A DNA stretch of 64,000 bases from Lacipirellulaceae bacterium (GTDB taxonomy: Bacteria > Planctomycetota > Planctomycetia > Pirellulales > Lacipirellulaceae). Positions 18,355 through 33,593 of this stretch are shown here, piece after piece. Both the position numbers and the translations under genes were made by a program. Positions within the stretch are counted from its first letter, which is position 1, and each line of letters begins with the position of its first letter. The stretch covers positions 1,054,001 to 1,118,000 of the forward strand of contig JAVJRG010000012.1 in the NCBI GenBank assembly GCA_040218535.1. The letters are read 5' to 3'. Below the pieces are notes generated by a model, which saw only the letters and a list, made by a program, of their open reading frames with translations, was not told where the DNA came from and ran no database searches.

Positions 18355-19500
18355 TTAAGCGTGTGTTGGATCGCTCAGCTTGTCTAGGACAGCATTCGTC
18401 TTTTCCCGTAATTGATTCACGACGGTCTCGCGATCTACGCCTGAGGCAAATACCGTGCAGACAGGATTTCCCTGCTCAAGACTTGTTCCGAAGTTGGGAA
18501 TGTCAGCAAGCTCTGGGGAATCGAGGGAGCCACGCTGTGCGAGGCAATCTGAAGTGAACTTCTTACTTGCCGTTGCGGGCTGACTGGCGAAAACGATGGC
18601 TTTGCCAAGTATTCTGCCGAAACTCTCGATGGCTGGCGGCTTTGGTAGCTTTCCCTCCAGACAGGCTGCTAAGTGATATTCAATCGCATTGAAGCGGTAA
18701 GTCTGTTCAATCAGTTCCACAGAGGCCGTCCAGCGTGGATTGACCTCAAGAACCCAAACCTGCGTGTCATCGATCATGAAGTCGATGCCGAAGAGTCCCT
18801 GTAGCTGAAATCGTGCGGTCAGCTTTTGACCGATTTGCTTGATCGCACGCCTCACTGCCTCTGGCAAGTTGATGCCTGCAATCGAGCCGCAATAGTCAAA
18901 GGGCGAGGCCCCTGTCCACGCCTCGCCCACAAGCTGTTCAGAGATTCCTAGCAAGACGGTCTGCTCGCCGTCGCCGACGAATACCGCAGACGCTGGCAGG
19001 CCCTCCACTCGGCGCTGATAGTACCGCTTGGGGCTCTTGGCAGTGCTGTCGAGCTCACTCTCGGTTAAAGAGCGCACTCCTGAACCGCCCGCACCACGGT
19101 AACTTTTCACCAGCCAGCTTCCATCGGTGGGTAGGCCTTTTGGAGTGGTCTGAGTTTCTGGAAAGTGGTCGCCCAGCCAGCGCGAAAGTTTCAACGGCGA
19201 ACGGACTTCCCGCAGGATCTTGCCCGACATTCCCAAAAGATCGCACTGAGATGCCATTCTCTCTACAAGCGTGGGATAGTTCTCGAGCCCTCCGGTGTAG
19301 AGCCACCCCTGAAACCGCTCGCGGCTAAGCCACCCCAAGAACCCCTCGGGATAGCTTTCCACCTGATGAGCTTCCACGCCGCAAGCCCGTAAATCCGCAT
19401 CTGCAAACAGATCACAAGTGACGACTTCGTAGCCCGCACGCATGGCTGAGAAAGCTGCGGCTCTCGCACTCGCCCCAAGGATGGCCAGGCGACGCATCAC
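18355..19500 (-). CDS. ATP-grasp carboligase-like protein
   Basis: This 381-residue protein has ATP-grasp features: a preATP-grasp Rossmann start (LAILGASARAAAFSAMRAGYEV), the ATP-binding loop WLVKSYRGAGGSGVR at about 131-145, GIDFMI near 254 and the metal-binding VLEVNPRWTASVEL near 265. ATP-grasp enzymes ligate a carboxylate to an amine or thiol through an acylphosphate. The overall sequence resembles the predicted carboligases related to biotin carboxylase that occur in bacteria with tetrahydromethanopterin-linked C1 genes; that match is from memory and tentative. The start overlaps the stop of the upstream MazG gene by four bases, so the two are probably translationally coupled. Confidence 0.75.
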   Translation of the reverse strand: MMRRLAILGASARAAAFSAMRAGYEVVTCDLFADADLRACGVEAHQVESYPEGFLGWLSRERFQGWLYTGGLENYPTLVERMASQCDLLGMSGKILREVRSPLKLSRWLGDHFPETQTTPKGLPTDGSWLVKSYRGAGGSGVRSLTESELDSTAKSPKRYYQRRVEGLPASAVFVGDGEQTVLLGISEQLVGEAWTGASPFDYCGSIAGINLPEAVRRAIKQIGQKLTARFQLQGLFGIDFMIDDTQVWVLEVNPRWTASVELIEQTYRFNAIEYHLAACLEGKLPKPPAIESFGRILGKAIVFASQPATASKKFTSDCLAQRGSLDSPELADIPNFGTSLEQGNPVCTVFASGVDRETVVNQLREKTNAVLDKLSDPTHA

Positions 19501-23997: not shown

Positions 23998-26031
23998 TTA
24001 CTTCGCCTGAGCTACTTGCTTCGCCCTTCCAGCGAGCGCCCGTGGAAAACCAGGTTGCGCCTGAGCGGTTGCTCCCACAGGGGTTCCGTCATGGGTCAGC
24101 AGTCCTTGGCTCCCAATAAACAGCGTGTGGAAATCTGCGACGACGATGTTGTAGGCGTCCATAGCGTAGGTTTCTTCGGAAGACTGAAAAGTCACTGCCT
24201 TTGTGAGCCCGTGCAATTCGGAATCGCTCGTGAGGTCGCTCATGCGTCGCCAGCCTTGTCCGGCTCGGAAGAAAACCTGCCCTTCACCGCTCACGATTTC
24301 TTGTGGAATGGCGTCGTCGGCTTTCTGGTTGGTTCGTAACTGCACGCGTTGCATCTCCATTTCGGGATAGGCGTTCATAGCGAGGATCGGCTTGTAGGCA
24401 AGCTCCCCGGTGCGCACGTCTTGAGAAAGCACAAAGTCGCCAATCCGTAGTTTCTCTACTGGTCGTTGTCCTTGAAGGGTCCAGACCGCGACGCCACGCG
24501 CTAAGGCCCGCGGCTGTTGTTCCAGGATGGCCTGCTCAAGCCGATGCTGTCCGCCACCGAGAGCCATTTCTGGGTGCGCTTCGACATGATCGCGCCACCA
24601 ATTCCACCAGGAGCGTGGATAAGCCTTCAGCGTTTGGCCGGTGACTTCATGAAGCAGCCCGGTGAGATGCTCGTTGTGCTCATGGATGCGAGCATTCACG
24701 TGGTCAACTTGTCTCGCCACTTGGTCGGCCTGAACATTCGCGCGCTGTTTGGCGTTTTGCCGTTGCTGATTGAAGCCGGGAAGCTCACCACCAACAAGAT
24801 ATCGACTGCCAATGTATTCATACTGTGCAGGTACCACTTCTGGGGGCACGTCGACATCGACGTAGGTGGTTTCGTAGATACGACTCTGCGCACTACTGCA
24901 GTAAAGGACATTGAGTGGCAGTTGGACGTTTCCTCGGAGCTTTCTCTGTGCAACACGTTTCGTATAGCCTGGTCGGGTGTAGCTGTCGGCTGTTTTCCGT
25001 CCATAGTTGACTGTTGCATGGCTATACTTCTGCGCTGCGATACGCTGGGATGTGCGATAGTTTTTCTCGAGCGTCTTGCCACCGGGTGCTTCCTGCTCCA
25101 GACGGTAGTTGCTCACAAGGTAGTTCCCTTGCTCGGTCAGGCTCATTGAGCCAGTCACTGGCAACTGCATGTGTGAGAGAATCTCTGGCACATACTGCTC
25201 CAGCGGTCGATCTTTCAAAGCCGTGGTCGCCGCGTAGCGGATCGAGTCCCAGGGGGAGTGAAGCGCTATCTGCACCAACTCATAGCTTGCCCGGGGGTCG
25301 TCAACTTTGGCCATCACGTCGACTAATGCCTCCTGGCGACGTCGAGTTTGCTGTTCGTTGTCTCCTGGTTCGGCCAACTCCTTTACCATCACAGCAGCGG
25401 CGGCCGGGTCATTCAGATTTCGAAGCTCACGCGCCGCTTCGCGACGTTGTTTGAGATCGGGGCCGTCAAGCTCGCGACGCAGCCGTTTGATTTTAGGTCG
25501 GAACGTTTCCGCTCGCTCTCGCTCAATCTCTTCTTGAATCTGAAAGCGAGCCTGCTCATCTCGGTCCATCAGAATTCCGCGGTGCCAGACAAGATCTAAC
25601 GCTTCAAGTGCGTGTTTATGCTTTGCGTCGAAGCGCAGCACGTGTAACCAATGGACTTTGGCATGTTCCGCGAGTTCTGAGCGTTCGCACCAGCGGGCGA
25701 TACGCTGATGACTACGACCATCGTCTACCATCGCCCCGCGTAGTTCGCGGTACTCCCTAAGTCGTTCGTCACTTGCGGCAGTAGCCTCTGCCTTAGTGGG
25801 TTTAACCCATTTCCCTTGAAAGTTGAGTTCGCCGGTATACCACTTCAAGAGTTCGTCCTTGCCCTCTTCTTTCGCATAGTCGAGCGCCGCTTCGCGAAGA
25901 TGGCTTTCACGGGAAGCAGCCAACACTTGCGGGGGATTGGCCGCTTTCCCCTGAAGTGCAGCAAGATTGTATACAACAAGAACTAGCGACAGATCGCGGA
26001 GACCTATTTTCCACGCAGATGTCTGATGCAT
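23998..26031 (-). CDS. Secreted HEAT-repeat protein with C-terminal degenerate Hint domain
   Basis: A 677-residue exported protein of a planctomycete-specific type. The N-terminus has a hydrophobic stretch ([15 protein letters not shown]) that looks like a signal peptide. Residues about 185-290 carry HEAT-like helical repeats ([36 protein letters not shown]). Residues 430-500 include a helical region and the family-typical [12 protein letters not shown]. From about 505 to 655 it resembles a Hint (hedgehog/intein) module: [22 protein letters not shown] and [23 protein letters not shown]. The starting Cys expected before the GTxV element is missing (ALARGVAVW) and no TxxH block is seen, so self-cleavage is unlikely. 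It is a single-gene unit ending 17 bases after the start region of the YyaL gene. Confidence 0.75.
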
Positions 26032-29488: not shown

Positions 29489-30037
29489 TTACAGCTCCCC
29501 ATCCAGACCGCGCTGATAGTATTTATGGGTGATCTCTTCCTGGTGCTCTAGCAGCCAGTCGATCGAGGGCTCGTTGTGCATGGCTTTGTGGATCGCTCCG
29601 GCCATGGCTTTGCGATGAATTTCGAATAGCGCTTTGTGGTCGAGGTTCTCATCGGTAGCCGCACCAGGGTTGAGCCACACGGAGCAGATGATCCCGAGGT
29701 CGTTGGCTTTTTCTTTAGGGAGGTCCCCTGCCCTGACCGCATCCAGCACGCCGTTGGCAATCGCCGCTTGAACGGTGCCCATCAGGATGTTCGTGTAGGC
29801 GTTGCTCTTCACCGTGACTTTGCTGACCATCAGCGTGACCGGTCTGACCTGAACGTCAGTGTTGAGGATGGCAAACACCTTGGAGTGTCCAGCCGATTGA
29901 TCCCCCGTGAGCGTGGCAATCGCGGTTCCCACCGGACCGTCTAGCTCGCCAATCACAACTTCCGGCTCAGCCGCGGTAAAAGGAGGTCCACCGCCCACTA
30001 AGCATTCGCCGGTCCGCATGATGATTCGTTCACTCAT
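29489..30037 (-). CDS. Formaldehyde-activating enzyme (Fae) paralogue without the catalytic His
   Basis: Fae condenses formaldehyde with tetrahydromethanopterin in C1-metabolising bacteria and archaea. This 182-residue protein matches the family: GECLVGGG at residue 10, VVIGELDGPVGTAIA, GHSKVFAILNTDVQVRPVTLMVSKVTVK (about residues 49-76) and GTVQAAIANGVLDAV. The proposed general acid/base His (AHIDLIIG in the methylotroph enzyme) is replaced by Glu in AEPEVVIG, and two residues are inserted just before it. It may therefore be a Fae-like protein of altered activity rather than the main enzyme. The ATG at 30037 gives the family N-terminus; the frame to 30208 extends it without homology. No other H4MPT enzymes are adjacent. 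Confidence 0.82.
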   Translation of the reverse strand: MSERIIMRTGECLVGGGPPFTAAEPEVVIGELDGPVGTAIATLTGDQSAGHSKVFAILNTDVQVRPVTLMVSKVTVKSNAYTNILMGTVQAAIANGVLDAVRAGDLPKEKANDLGIICSVWLNPGAATDENLDHKALFEIHRKAMAGAIHKAMHNEPSIDWLLEHQEEITHKYYQRGLDGEL

Positions 30038-30239
30038 AATTCTTGGTCCTATTCTGTGGCTCGTCAGGGTAGCAGATGATTTGCTTTCTAGTTGTGGTGG
30101 AGGAGCAGGTATTTTGCAATGCACAAAACCCTCGCCAAGCGAGAGTTTTTGTCTGGATCGGGCAAACCAGGTAAAATACTGTCGATAGAGACTAGCCATG
30201 ATCTTCACGTAGCGAATTCCCTTCTTGAAGGATGGTCAA

Positions 30240-31777: not shown

Positions 31778-32377
31778 ATGATTCAAATCATCGACAACTA
31801 CGATTCCTTCACCTACAACCTTGTCCAGCGACTGGGGGAGATTGATGGCTCGTTGGAAATCCGAGTCGATCGCAACGATGAGATCACCGTTGAAGAGATT
31901 CTCGCTCGTCGGCCAGAGAGACTAATTATTTCTCCAGGACCTTGCACACCCAATGAAGCGGGGATTTCGGTACCGTGCGTGACTCAGCTTGCTGGCAAGC
32001 TGCCGCTATTGGGGGTTTGCCTCGGACACCAGTCCATCGGCCAAGCCTTTGGTGGAACGATTGTGAGAGCAGACCGTCTGATGCACGGCAAAACGGATCG
32101 GATACATCACACAGGTGATGGCCTGTTTGCCGGGCTGGAGAATCCCATGCAGGCGACGCGCTACCACTCGCTGGTGATTCAGCCTGAGACCCTCTCGGAC
32201 GAATTCGAAGTCACCGCTTGGAGTGACAACCCCGAAACCGGCAGTCGTGAGATCATGGCCATCGCGCACAAAGAACTGCCTGTTTACGGATTGCAATTTC
32301 ACCCCGAAAGTTTCCTGACGTACGACGGGACCGACTTGTTGCGAAACTTCCTGGCGGTGGAAACCGTGGGGGTTTGA
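31778..32377 (+). CDS. Glutamine amidotransferase subunit of anthranilate or aminodeoxychorismate synthase
   Basis: The 199-residue class I amidotransferase hydrolyses glutamine and passes ammonia to the TrpE or PabB subunit. Motifs: [17 protein letters not shown] at the start, [14 protein letters not shown], the nucleophile loop [15 protein letters not shown] (Cys near residue 80) and FHPESF with catalytic His and Glu. TrpG and PabA cannot be separated by sequence, and many bacteria use one protein for both. It is followed one base later by moeA, an unusual but tight arrangement. Confidence 0.92.
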
Positions 32378-32378
32378 G

Positions 32379-33593
32379 ATGATTTCGGTTGACGAGGCGC
32401 ATCAATTACTGGCTCAGGAAGTCGCGTCGCTCGCACCACGGACTATAGAACTTGGTAATCTGCTGAATCTTCGCTTGGCCGAATCCATAGTGAGCGATGT
32501 TGATTCGCCACCCTTCGCGAAGTCGTTGTTCGACGGCTACGCGATCAATGTGAGCGATGCGACGACCCAAAGACGCGTCGTCGAGGAAGTTACCGCTGGC
32601 AACGTGCCGAAGTCTACGATCGGCACTGGCGAAGTCATCCGTGTTATGACCGGGACACAATTGCCGGTCGGTGCCAACGCGGTTGTCAAGCGAGAAGAAT
32701 GCAAGAACGACGGAGCTGCGGTCGGCGAATCGGTCGTTCTGCCCGATCAACTCCCCGAAGCTGGCAGTGGCGTCATGCAGCGGGGCGCTTCATTTGCGCG
32801 TGATGAGGAAGTTCTTGCAGCGGGCAAAGTGCTTGGCCCGCTCGATATTGCCCTGTTAGCGGAAATCGGGCGCACCTCAGCGAGCGCTGTTCCCACGCCA
32901 AAGGTCACGGTGTTACCAACAGGTAATGAGCTGGTTGAACCAGGCGAGCCGCTCGATGCCGGACAGATCCGCAATAGCAATGGCCCGATGCTGTTGGCTT
33001 CGCTCGAGCGGGCCGGTTTTGCGGGCGATCAACTCAGCATCGGACGCGACGATCCGGCTGACCTGGAAGCGAAGTTCACCGCAGGAATGCAGGCCGACGT
33101 ACTGCTGGTGACTGGGGGTGTGTCCGCTGGTGTGCTTGACCTCGCTCCTGGGTTATTGAAGGGCATGGGCGTTCGCGAAGTCTTCCACAAAGTGCGAATG
33201 AAGCCCGGCAAGCCGGTGTGGTTCGGCGTTACCGAAGGCGGCGAGAGCAGGACTTACGTTTTTGGACTCCCGGGAAACCCTGTGAGCGCACTGGTGGCGT
33301 TTCATCTATTTGCTCTGCCCTTGCTGCGGACTTTGAGCGGCGAGCCCTTTGCTCCACCACAGCAACATCGGGGCGCTCTGACTGATGCTTTTACACACAA
33401 AGGAAAAAGGCAGACGTATTTTCCGTCACGGGTTGAAGCAAAGGGTGAAAGAGAGTTGCCATTGGTGACGCCGCTTGATTGGCGCGGCTCAGCCGATCTT
33501 GCGACGCTTACGCGAGCCCAGGGACTGGCTGTTTTCGAGCCAGGGGATTACGTCACAGAAGCTGGCGCTGAAGTTGAGTTATTAACTTTGTAG
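32379..33593 (+). CDS. moeA: Molybdopterin molybdenumtransferase MoeA
   Basis: MoeA inserts molybdate into adenylylated molybdopterin to finish the molybdenum cofactor. The 404-residue protein has the standard four-domain layout: FAKSLFDGYAINV near residue 46, IRVMTGTQLPVGANAVVKREE near 87, TVLPTGNELVEPGEPLDAGQIRNSN near 176 and PGKPVWFGV and VFGLPGNPVSALVAF near 302. One base separates it from the preceding amidotransferase gene, suggesting co-transcription and probably translational coupling. No other moa or mob genes are in the window. Confidence 0.94.
   Translation: MISVDEAHQLLAQEVASLAPRTIELGNLLNLRLAESIVSDVDSPPFAKSLFDGYAINVSDATTQRRVVEEVTAGNVPKSTIGTGEVIRVMTGTQLPVGANAVVKREECKNDGAAVGESVVLPDQLPEAGSGVMQRGASFARDEEVLAAGKVLGPLDIALLAEIGRTSASAVPTPKVTVLPTGNELVEPGEPLDAGQIRNSNGPMLLASLERAGFAGDQLSIGRDDPADLEAKFTAGMQADVLLVTGGVSAGVLDLAPGLLKGMGVREVFHKVRMKPGKPVWFGVTEGGESRTYVFGLPGNPVSALVAFHLFALPLLRTLSGEPFAPPQQHRGALTDAFTHKGKRQTYFPSRVEAKGERELPLVTPLDWRGSADLATLTRAQGLAVFEPGDYVTEAGAEVELLTL

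Follow-up and report, generated by a model that had tools for sequence, protein, structure and literature searches.

The gene on the minus strand at positions 29,489 to 30,037 of the window, that is, of the whole 64,000-nucleotide stretch of Lacipirellulaceae DNA analysed here, is probably the planctomycete orthologue of Fae3. Its product belongs to the formaldehyde-activating enzyme (Fae) family, but it has Glu where the family has its proposed catalytic His, and the His is absent throughout the group of proteins to which it belongs. Translation of the open reading frame gave 182 unbroken codons followed by a stop. The protein matches the Pfam Fae domain PF08714 with 196.2 bits (cut-off 27) and barely passes the NCBIfam equivalog-domain model TIGR03126 (120.5 bits; cut-off 118.05), and the Fae of M. 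extorquens, of solved structure (1y5y), matches it directly in HMMER with an E value of 3e-14. The AF2 model of the protein has a pLDDT of 90.5; Foldseek matched it to 1y60 (E 2.9e-15), and the best structural match was Fae 1y5y, with a Z of 24.8 and an rmsd of 1.4 Å over 161 residues (VIA-align) and 26% identity in the structure alignment. The second PDB match, 8ub7 'Avd', contains the same matched Fae stretch within a longer chain and looks like an engineered fusion. The features of the gene are given below, the conservation percentages referring to four groups (AEPE, AMPE, AHID and AHIN) that were defined by the motif itself.

29489-30037, minus strand: Fae3-type, His-less Fae-family gene; 182 amino acids, ATG at 30037, stop at 29489-29491
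30045-30050, minus strand: AGGACC, plausible ribosome-binding site 5' of the ATG, from sequence inspection only
29975-29980, minus strand: two extra residues, approximate place (F20-T21 by HMMER; the MAFFT gap lies a few residues earlier)
29960-29968, minus strand: codons of E24-P25-E26, at the place of M. extorquens His22-Ile23-Asp24 in the HMMER alignment
29819-29821, minus strand: codon of K73 (M. extorquens Lys71); Lys in 100% of all four motif groups
29768-29770, minus strand: codon of Q90 (M. extorquens Gln88); Gln in 100% of AEPE, AMPE and AHIN and in 96% of AHID
29612-29614, minus strand: codon of R142 (M. extorquens Tyr135); Arg in 100% of AEPE, Tyr in 98-100% elsewhere

In the HMMER alignment with 1y5y, the M. 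extorquens segment GNE--VAHIDLIIG lies opposite GPPFTAAEPEVVIG in the window protein, with two extra residues followed by the change of His-Ile-Asp to Glu-Pro-Glu. The column that pairs Glu with His is identical in the HMMER and MAFFT alignments, which disagree only on where the two-residue gap falls. The structure paper of Acharya et al. from 2005 is said to discuss the roles of His22, Asp24, Leu53, Lys71, Thr73 and Gln88 in Fae, and His22 is reportedly the proposed general acid of the enzyme. Lys71 and Gln88, which we take to be the pterin contacts of M. extorquens Fae, are found in almost every sequence of each group, and Gly85 is constant, like Lys71, across the motif groups. Besides the motif, 16 more columns switch between groups. 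Those specific to AEPE include Asn59 to Asp, Phe84 to Met and Tyr135 to Arg; Gln79 is changed to Tyr in the AEPE group, and Tyr is common there in the Met group too. The arginine of the window protein, Arg142, is possibly the partner of the new Glu24. Hence, the first-pass annotation, which had described a Fae paralogue without the catalytic His, with AHID turned into AEPE behind two inserted residues and with the other family motifs kept, was right on all these points.

The switch is a property of the group and not of one protein. When the 196 distinct sequences collected were ranked by their identity with the window protein, leaving the motif columns aside, a clean gap appeared between 56% and 45%. 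Glu-Pro-Glu is present in 113 of the 113 distinct sequences that are at least 50% identical outside the motif, the window protein included, and these come from Planctomycetota and Proteobacteria. Below the gap, where M. extorquens Fae falls, there are 21 sequences with Met-Pro-Glu and 63 with His (57 HID, one HVD and five HIN). In the alignment A1, whose members were picked regardless of the motif, all 29 sequences carry Glu-Pro-Glu and 57 columns are invariant. Because the motif recurs in 113/113 relatives and in 29/29 members of A1, it is not a sequencing error. No column was seen with a His common to every AEPE sequence but lacking in the other groups. Two histidines considered as stand-ins were rejected: H171 (His164) is present in 100% of AEPE, AMPE and AHID, with Asn in AHIN, and at H51 a His is already found in the planctomycete His-type Fae. 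A further Fae-like group, with AHIN for AHID (His kept, Asp changed to Asn), was observed at the Pseudomonadota loci L245-L248 and L260.

The assignment to Fae3 goes through a methanotroph genome of our collection, G461, which belongs to the genus of M. buryatense. It contains three Fae genes, two of His type and one with Glu-Pro-Glu, at about 0.93, 1.65 and 2.78 Mb, and its sole His-less Fae (L220) is 83.5% identical to the window protein. The fae locus tags of M. alcaliphilum 20Z are RS04100 (fae1-2), MEALZ_RS07105 (fae3) and RS11875 (fae1) in the available text of PMC11748545. From gene count, order and spacing we infer that G461 is M. alcaliphilum 20Z and that its Fae3 falls within the AEPE clade; since its fae genes match the 20Z tags in order and spacing, the group of the window protein would be Fae3. 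On this identification of G461, the methylotroph Fae3 and the window protein are alike in lacking the His and in sharing a clade, and differ in that the host of the latter is a planctomycete with one His-type Fae, in which the window gene stands alone. The fae3 of Methyloversatilis is likened to the window gene by its name, the motif state being no part of that comparison. The fae2 of M. aquaticum 22A is Maq22A_1p31155 (PMC7356819, in the text available), a tag that we read as plasmid 1p; the Met-Pro-Glu group would thus be Fae2, because the sole match on pMaq22A_1p has Met-Pro-Glu. Fae2 is a sister group, similar in the absence of His and in the conservation of Lys71 and Gln88, but it has Met at the His position (AMPE, against AEPE in the window protein), keeps Tyr135, forms a separate clade and is 39% identical to the window protein. 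The canonical Fae (5,6,7,8-tetrahydromethanopterin hydro-lyase; 1y5y/1y60, TIGR03126) shares the fold, the length and Lys71, Gly85 and Gln88, and differs in having His22-Ile23-Asp24 at the place of Glu-Pro-Glu. The 'aldehyde-activating protein' AWI91988.1 from plasmid pLVM1 of Methylobacterium sp. DM1 also has EPE and is 74% identical to the window protein, but its gene stands immediately behind dmm-, mgs- and gmaS-like genes that serve the use of dimethylamine/methylamine. Among the plasmid-borne members, H2, H9 and H12, for example, carry the formaldehyde-activating-enzyme annotation.

The phylogeny agrees with this grouping. In a tree of 121 rows, which includes only part of the His-type and planctomycete rows, was made by a quick method with SH-aLRT supports only, and was rooted by choice on proteobacterial His-type Fae, the clade of AEPE plus AMPE has a support of 99 and the AEPE clade, of 67 rows, one of 96; the proteobacterial AEPE members nest inside the planctomycete diversity. 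The tree of the 196 sequences without the motif columns separates AEPE from the Met and His types in the same way, and on it residue 22 changes state (E, M or H) twice, the minimum for three states. This pattern fits a single loss of the His followed by transfer between phyla, with many inner forks open and some long branches.

Proteins of the window's type occur patchily and in the company of a second Fae. Among 59 relatives, own genome included, Fae was found in 52 and a second Fae of the window's type in 15, and the sequences of these 15 second copies all carry EPE; within these relatives alone the dependence on a His-type Fae was not significant (15/52 vs 0/7, p 0.17). The window's type is present in 23 of 392 Planctomycetota genomes; 27 others have only weaker matches and 342 have none, and all 23 carriers have another match at 33-40% identity, interpreted as His type (Fisher p 1.2e-23). 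Eight of 398 Pseudomonadota carry the window's type (nine genes, 68-84% identity), and all eight also have a match at 27-30%, interpreted likewise. One Pseudomonadota genome, G607, has two near-identical Glu-Pro-Glu genes, one (L264) after dmm-mgs-gmaS and the other (L265) elsewhere. The best 80 loci listed by a scan of the genome collection belong to Planctomycetota and to Gammaproteobacteria, the latter at 82-86% identity, and many of the gammaproteobacterial carriers among them are methanotrophs, such as Methylotuvimicrobium buryatense 5G. A His-type match, judged by bit score with the sequence mostly unread, was found in 60 of the 64 genomes examined from these best 80 (47/50 and 13/14); the four without such a score are all MAGs. 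The paralogue status given in the first-pass annotation stands; its interpretation had not included the apparently known class (Fae3), the invariance of the Glu or the range from planctomycetes to methanotrophs and Methylobacterium.

A His-containing Fae, the presence of which in the same genome had been raised there as a point to check, does exist. The genome search returned two Fae genes. Besides the window gene there is C12:1435948-1436421, a His-type Fae gene with EIAHIDLMIGS in its product; its same-strand neighbour looks like a methylene-H4MPT dehydrogenase gene. The genome also has fhcD (397 bits), within a cluster (L271, C12:915500-935000) in which tblastn with proteins of the Bythopirellula locus L148 and an ORF listing located fhcD, fhcB-, fhcA-, mobA- and fhcC-like genes and ABC-transport genes, together with an aldehyde ferredoxin oxidoreductase-family gene. 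Because a His-type Fae, fhcD and an fhc cluster are encoded, the organism probably has an H4MPT/methylofuran pathway, and the gene in the window is an additional paralogue. As to the N-methylglutamate pathway, no GMAS over the cut-off was found in the genome (197.9 vs 469.6 bits).

Some observations concern the fhc clusters themselves. Both L271 and L148 combine fhc genes with ABC-transport, aldehyde ferredoxin oxidoreductase-family, mobA- and moeA-like genes; the transport genes can be read as of the tungstate type, and Pfam labels those of L148 only as BPD_transp_1 and PBP_like_2. The FhcB of L271 and L148 keeps the Cys-rich CTFCGCVCDD, which the Methylococcales FhcB (L171) does not have (FCGIGTDD), and this motif would fit a redox-active formylmethanofuran dehydrogenase better than a hydrolase. 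A second FhcB-like gene lies at L148:18763-20067 (TIGR03129, 429 bits), its product 44% identical to the first in that locus.

The window also holds folD and an ATP-grasp gene, separate from the Fae gene, as the first-pass annotation had stated:

377-1240: folD (PF00763/PF02882), 28 kb from the Fae3-type gene
18355-19500, minus strand: ATP-grasp protein (PF02655), 10 kb from the Fae3-type gene

The ATP-grasp protein could be the methylofuran enzyme MyfA/OrfY. It scores 29.6 bits against the model of the tyramine-glutamate ligase MfnD (cut-off 400) and slightly higher against carbamoyl-phosphate synthase models. Nearer to the Fae3-type gene, at 1.7 kb, a trpG/pabA-type amidotransferase gene is immediately followed by moeA (31778-33593, plus strand), and a moeA-like stretch (27% identity) is also found near the Fae3-type gene of the same-genus genome L039. 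The minus-strand gene at 23998-26031 encodes a 677-residue protein that ends in a pretoxin-HINT domain; its match to HEAT repeats is weak and under the cut-off.

Gene neighbourhoods in a few relatives fit a link with H4MPT or methylamine metabolism. In L148 the Fae3-type gene occupies the slot flanked by the aldehyde ferredoxin oxidoreductase-family gene on one side and fhcB-fhcA-fhcC on the other; in the window's own genome this slot is taken by fhcD. Four Methylococcales loci have fhcA-D in the fetched stretch, at about 0.8 kb (L171, L172) or about 4-5 kb (L170, L173), the fhc family assignments having been made for L171. On pLVM1 of DM1 and in G607 the gene follows genes for dimethylamine monooxygenase-like proteins (DmmA-like, HODM-like), mgs (glutamate-synthase-like) and gmaS (type III glutamine synthetase), and at L264 of the latter a GcvT-like folate-binding protein is linked with the Fae3-type gene; dmm/mgs/gmaS were recorded at two Pseudomonadota loci, the neighbourhoods of L261-L263 and L265-L268 having been only skimmed. 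Directly upstream of the Fae3-type gene, 10 of the 14 gammaproteobacterial loci (L163-L167, L169, L171-L173, L269) have a divergent radical-SAM gene, and three of these ten also have fhc. An example is L164:9060-9941, with a viperin-like score of 20.5 (cut-off 180), a Pfam Radical_SAM score of 29.0 (cut-off 29.5) and no specific family. In Azospirillum, a gene of the sister group adjoins a chemotaxis receptor gene.

The planctomycete gene mostly stands by itself. On the planctomycete side fhc was present in the fetched stretch of 1/101 loci (L148), some of the 101 being the same gene fetched twice and many being short. No clear conserved neighbour or operon in planctomycetes was found among 114 loci, in a survey that used the longest ORFs, which may be antisense ORFs in GC-rich DNA, with targeted tblastn as a second look. 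The widest neighbour family, interpreted as sulfatases, occurred in 18/114 loci, 12 times within 6 kb; sulfatases are a family common in planctomycetes. Among the 59 relatives, the paralogue was associated neither with the aldehyde oxidoreductase family (4/15 vs 7/44, p 0.45) nor with GMAS (1/15 vs 3/44, p 1.0), and fhcD over the cut-off was common with or without it (13/15 vs 40/44).

Studies on the function of Fae3 have been published for two methylotrophs, and they are cited here from the text available. The fae3 of M. alcaliphilum, introduced into AM1 delta-fae1, did not relieve the methanol sensitivity or restore growth, on plates or in liquid, and deletion of fae3 gave no growth defect (data not displayed in the paper); according to the same 2024 paper, what Fae groups 2-4 do is unknown (PMC11748545). 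Hence the proposal of the first-pass annotation that the protein may not activate formaldehyde gains weight, given that this Fae3, the probable 83.5%-identical orthologue, failed in Fae complementation (PMC11748545). In Methyloversatilis, fae3 is almost 10-fold up on methylamine, and the single mutant has no phenotype; the fae1 fae3 double mutant yielded zero revertants, and removal of fae3 from a fae1 revertant had no effect (PMC5023235). In the open-licence literature searched, as far as its text was available, no report of the loss of the His in Fae2- or Fae3-type proteins was found, nor anything relevant on Fae together with dimethylamine monooxygenase, and the words histidine, active site and residue are absent from the main text of PMC11748545.

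The reading that we favour, and for which the chances seem to us evenly balanced, is that the window protein would be an accessory C1-handling protein of the H4MPT pathway with Glu24 in the catalytic place. The active site would have been rebuilt on the Fae fold, with Glu-Pro-Glu here, Met-Pro-Glu in the Fae2 branch and His-Ile-Asp in Fae. The protein would work alongside the normal Fae, without replacing it, in cells with an H4MPT/methylofuran C1 pathway. A methanopterin-type carrier would most likely still be bound, and Glu24 may act as an acid/base in the handling of a C1 unit or a small aldehyde. A slow or reverse condensation, or the handling of formaldehyde from N-demethylation, would be examples of such a reaction, as opposed to the main entry step of formaldehyde.

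A non-catalytic carrier or sensor, which would bind (methylene-)H4MPT or formaldehyde and signal or buffer, is rather unlikely. The catalytic His is missing group-wide, single fae3 mutants have no growth phenotype (PMC11748545, PMC5023235), Fae homologues have been credited with possible sensing or regulatory roles in the text available (PMC3728764, PMC11748545), and the chemotaxis receptor gene beside the Azospirillum gene would suit such a role. However, a dead site would be harder to reconcile with an invariant Glu-Pro-Glu than a working acid/base, the neighbours in relatives are mostly enzymes, and no regulator emerged as a conserved neighbour.

It is improbable that the protein is a folate-linked Fae, which would condense formaldehyde with tetrahydrofolate or free it from methylene-H4F. 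Such an activity has been proposed for Fae homologues (PMC5023235) and for Fae1-2 (PMC11748545), and the linkage with N-methylglutamate-type operons points in this direction, as the end product of that pathway is methylene-H4F (PMC5023235, all in the text available). The GcvT-like folate-binding protein at L264 and the folD of the window, though so distant, can be added. Nevertheless, the gene is found almost only alongside a second, H4MPT-type Fae, whereas folate is near universal, and fhc genes lie nearby in several relatives. Slightly less probable still is a redundant isoform that carries out the usual Fae reaction, Glu24 serving as its acid; the TIGR03126 cut-off is passed, barely, and Lys71 and Gln88 are kept, but M. 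alcaliphilum Fae3 gave no rescue of AM1 delta-fae1 in the available text of PMC11748545.

Comparison of the window gene with the same-genus copy gave a dN of 0.036 and a dS of 1.62, against 0.055 and 1.71 for the His-type Fae in that genome pair. Purifying selection on the window paralogue is strong, and its constraint is no weaker than that of the normal Fae. A decaying duplicate without function, for which the patchy distribution (15/59 relatives, own genome included) could be taken, is hardly credible and is rejected by these values, which are strongly contrary to it, as are the 82-84% identity to methanotroph proteins and the 57 invariant columns in 29 sequences. Tight constraint and an invariant Glu-Pro-Glu suggest, therefore, that the protein is in use.

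More tentatively, and with doubt prevailing, Fae2 and Fae3 together may constitute an enzyme family of their own that uses the Fae fold and whose chemistry would have changed when a single ancestral event replaced His by Met- or Glu-Pro-Glu. If so, the family might, for example, transfer C1 units between carriers or capture formaldehyde from N-demethylation, and it would have been hidden by the automatic naming of its members as formaldehyde-activating enzymes.

The Fae3 class itself appears to be known, and the part that deserves the attention of specialists is that Fae2- and Fae3-type proteins lack the His as whole groups. This absence would give a simple structural reason for the failure of Fae3 to replace Fae, reducing the matter to a single-residue question within what is so far an unexplained part of methylotroph genomes. 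Moreover, a protein without the His passes the standard formaldehyde-activating-enzyme model, which calls for caution with claims of formaldehyde oxidation in planctomycetes that come from metagenomes.
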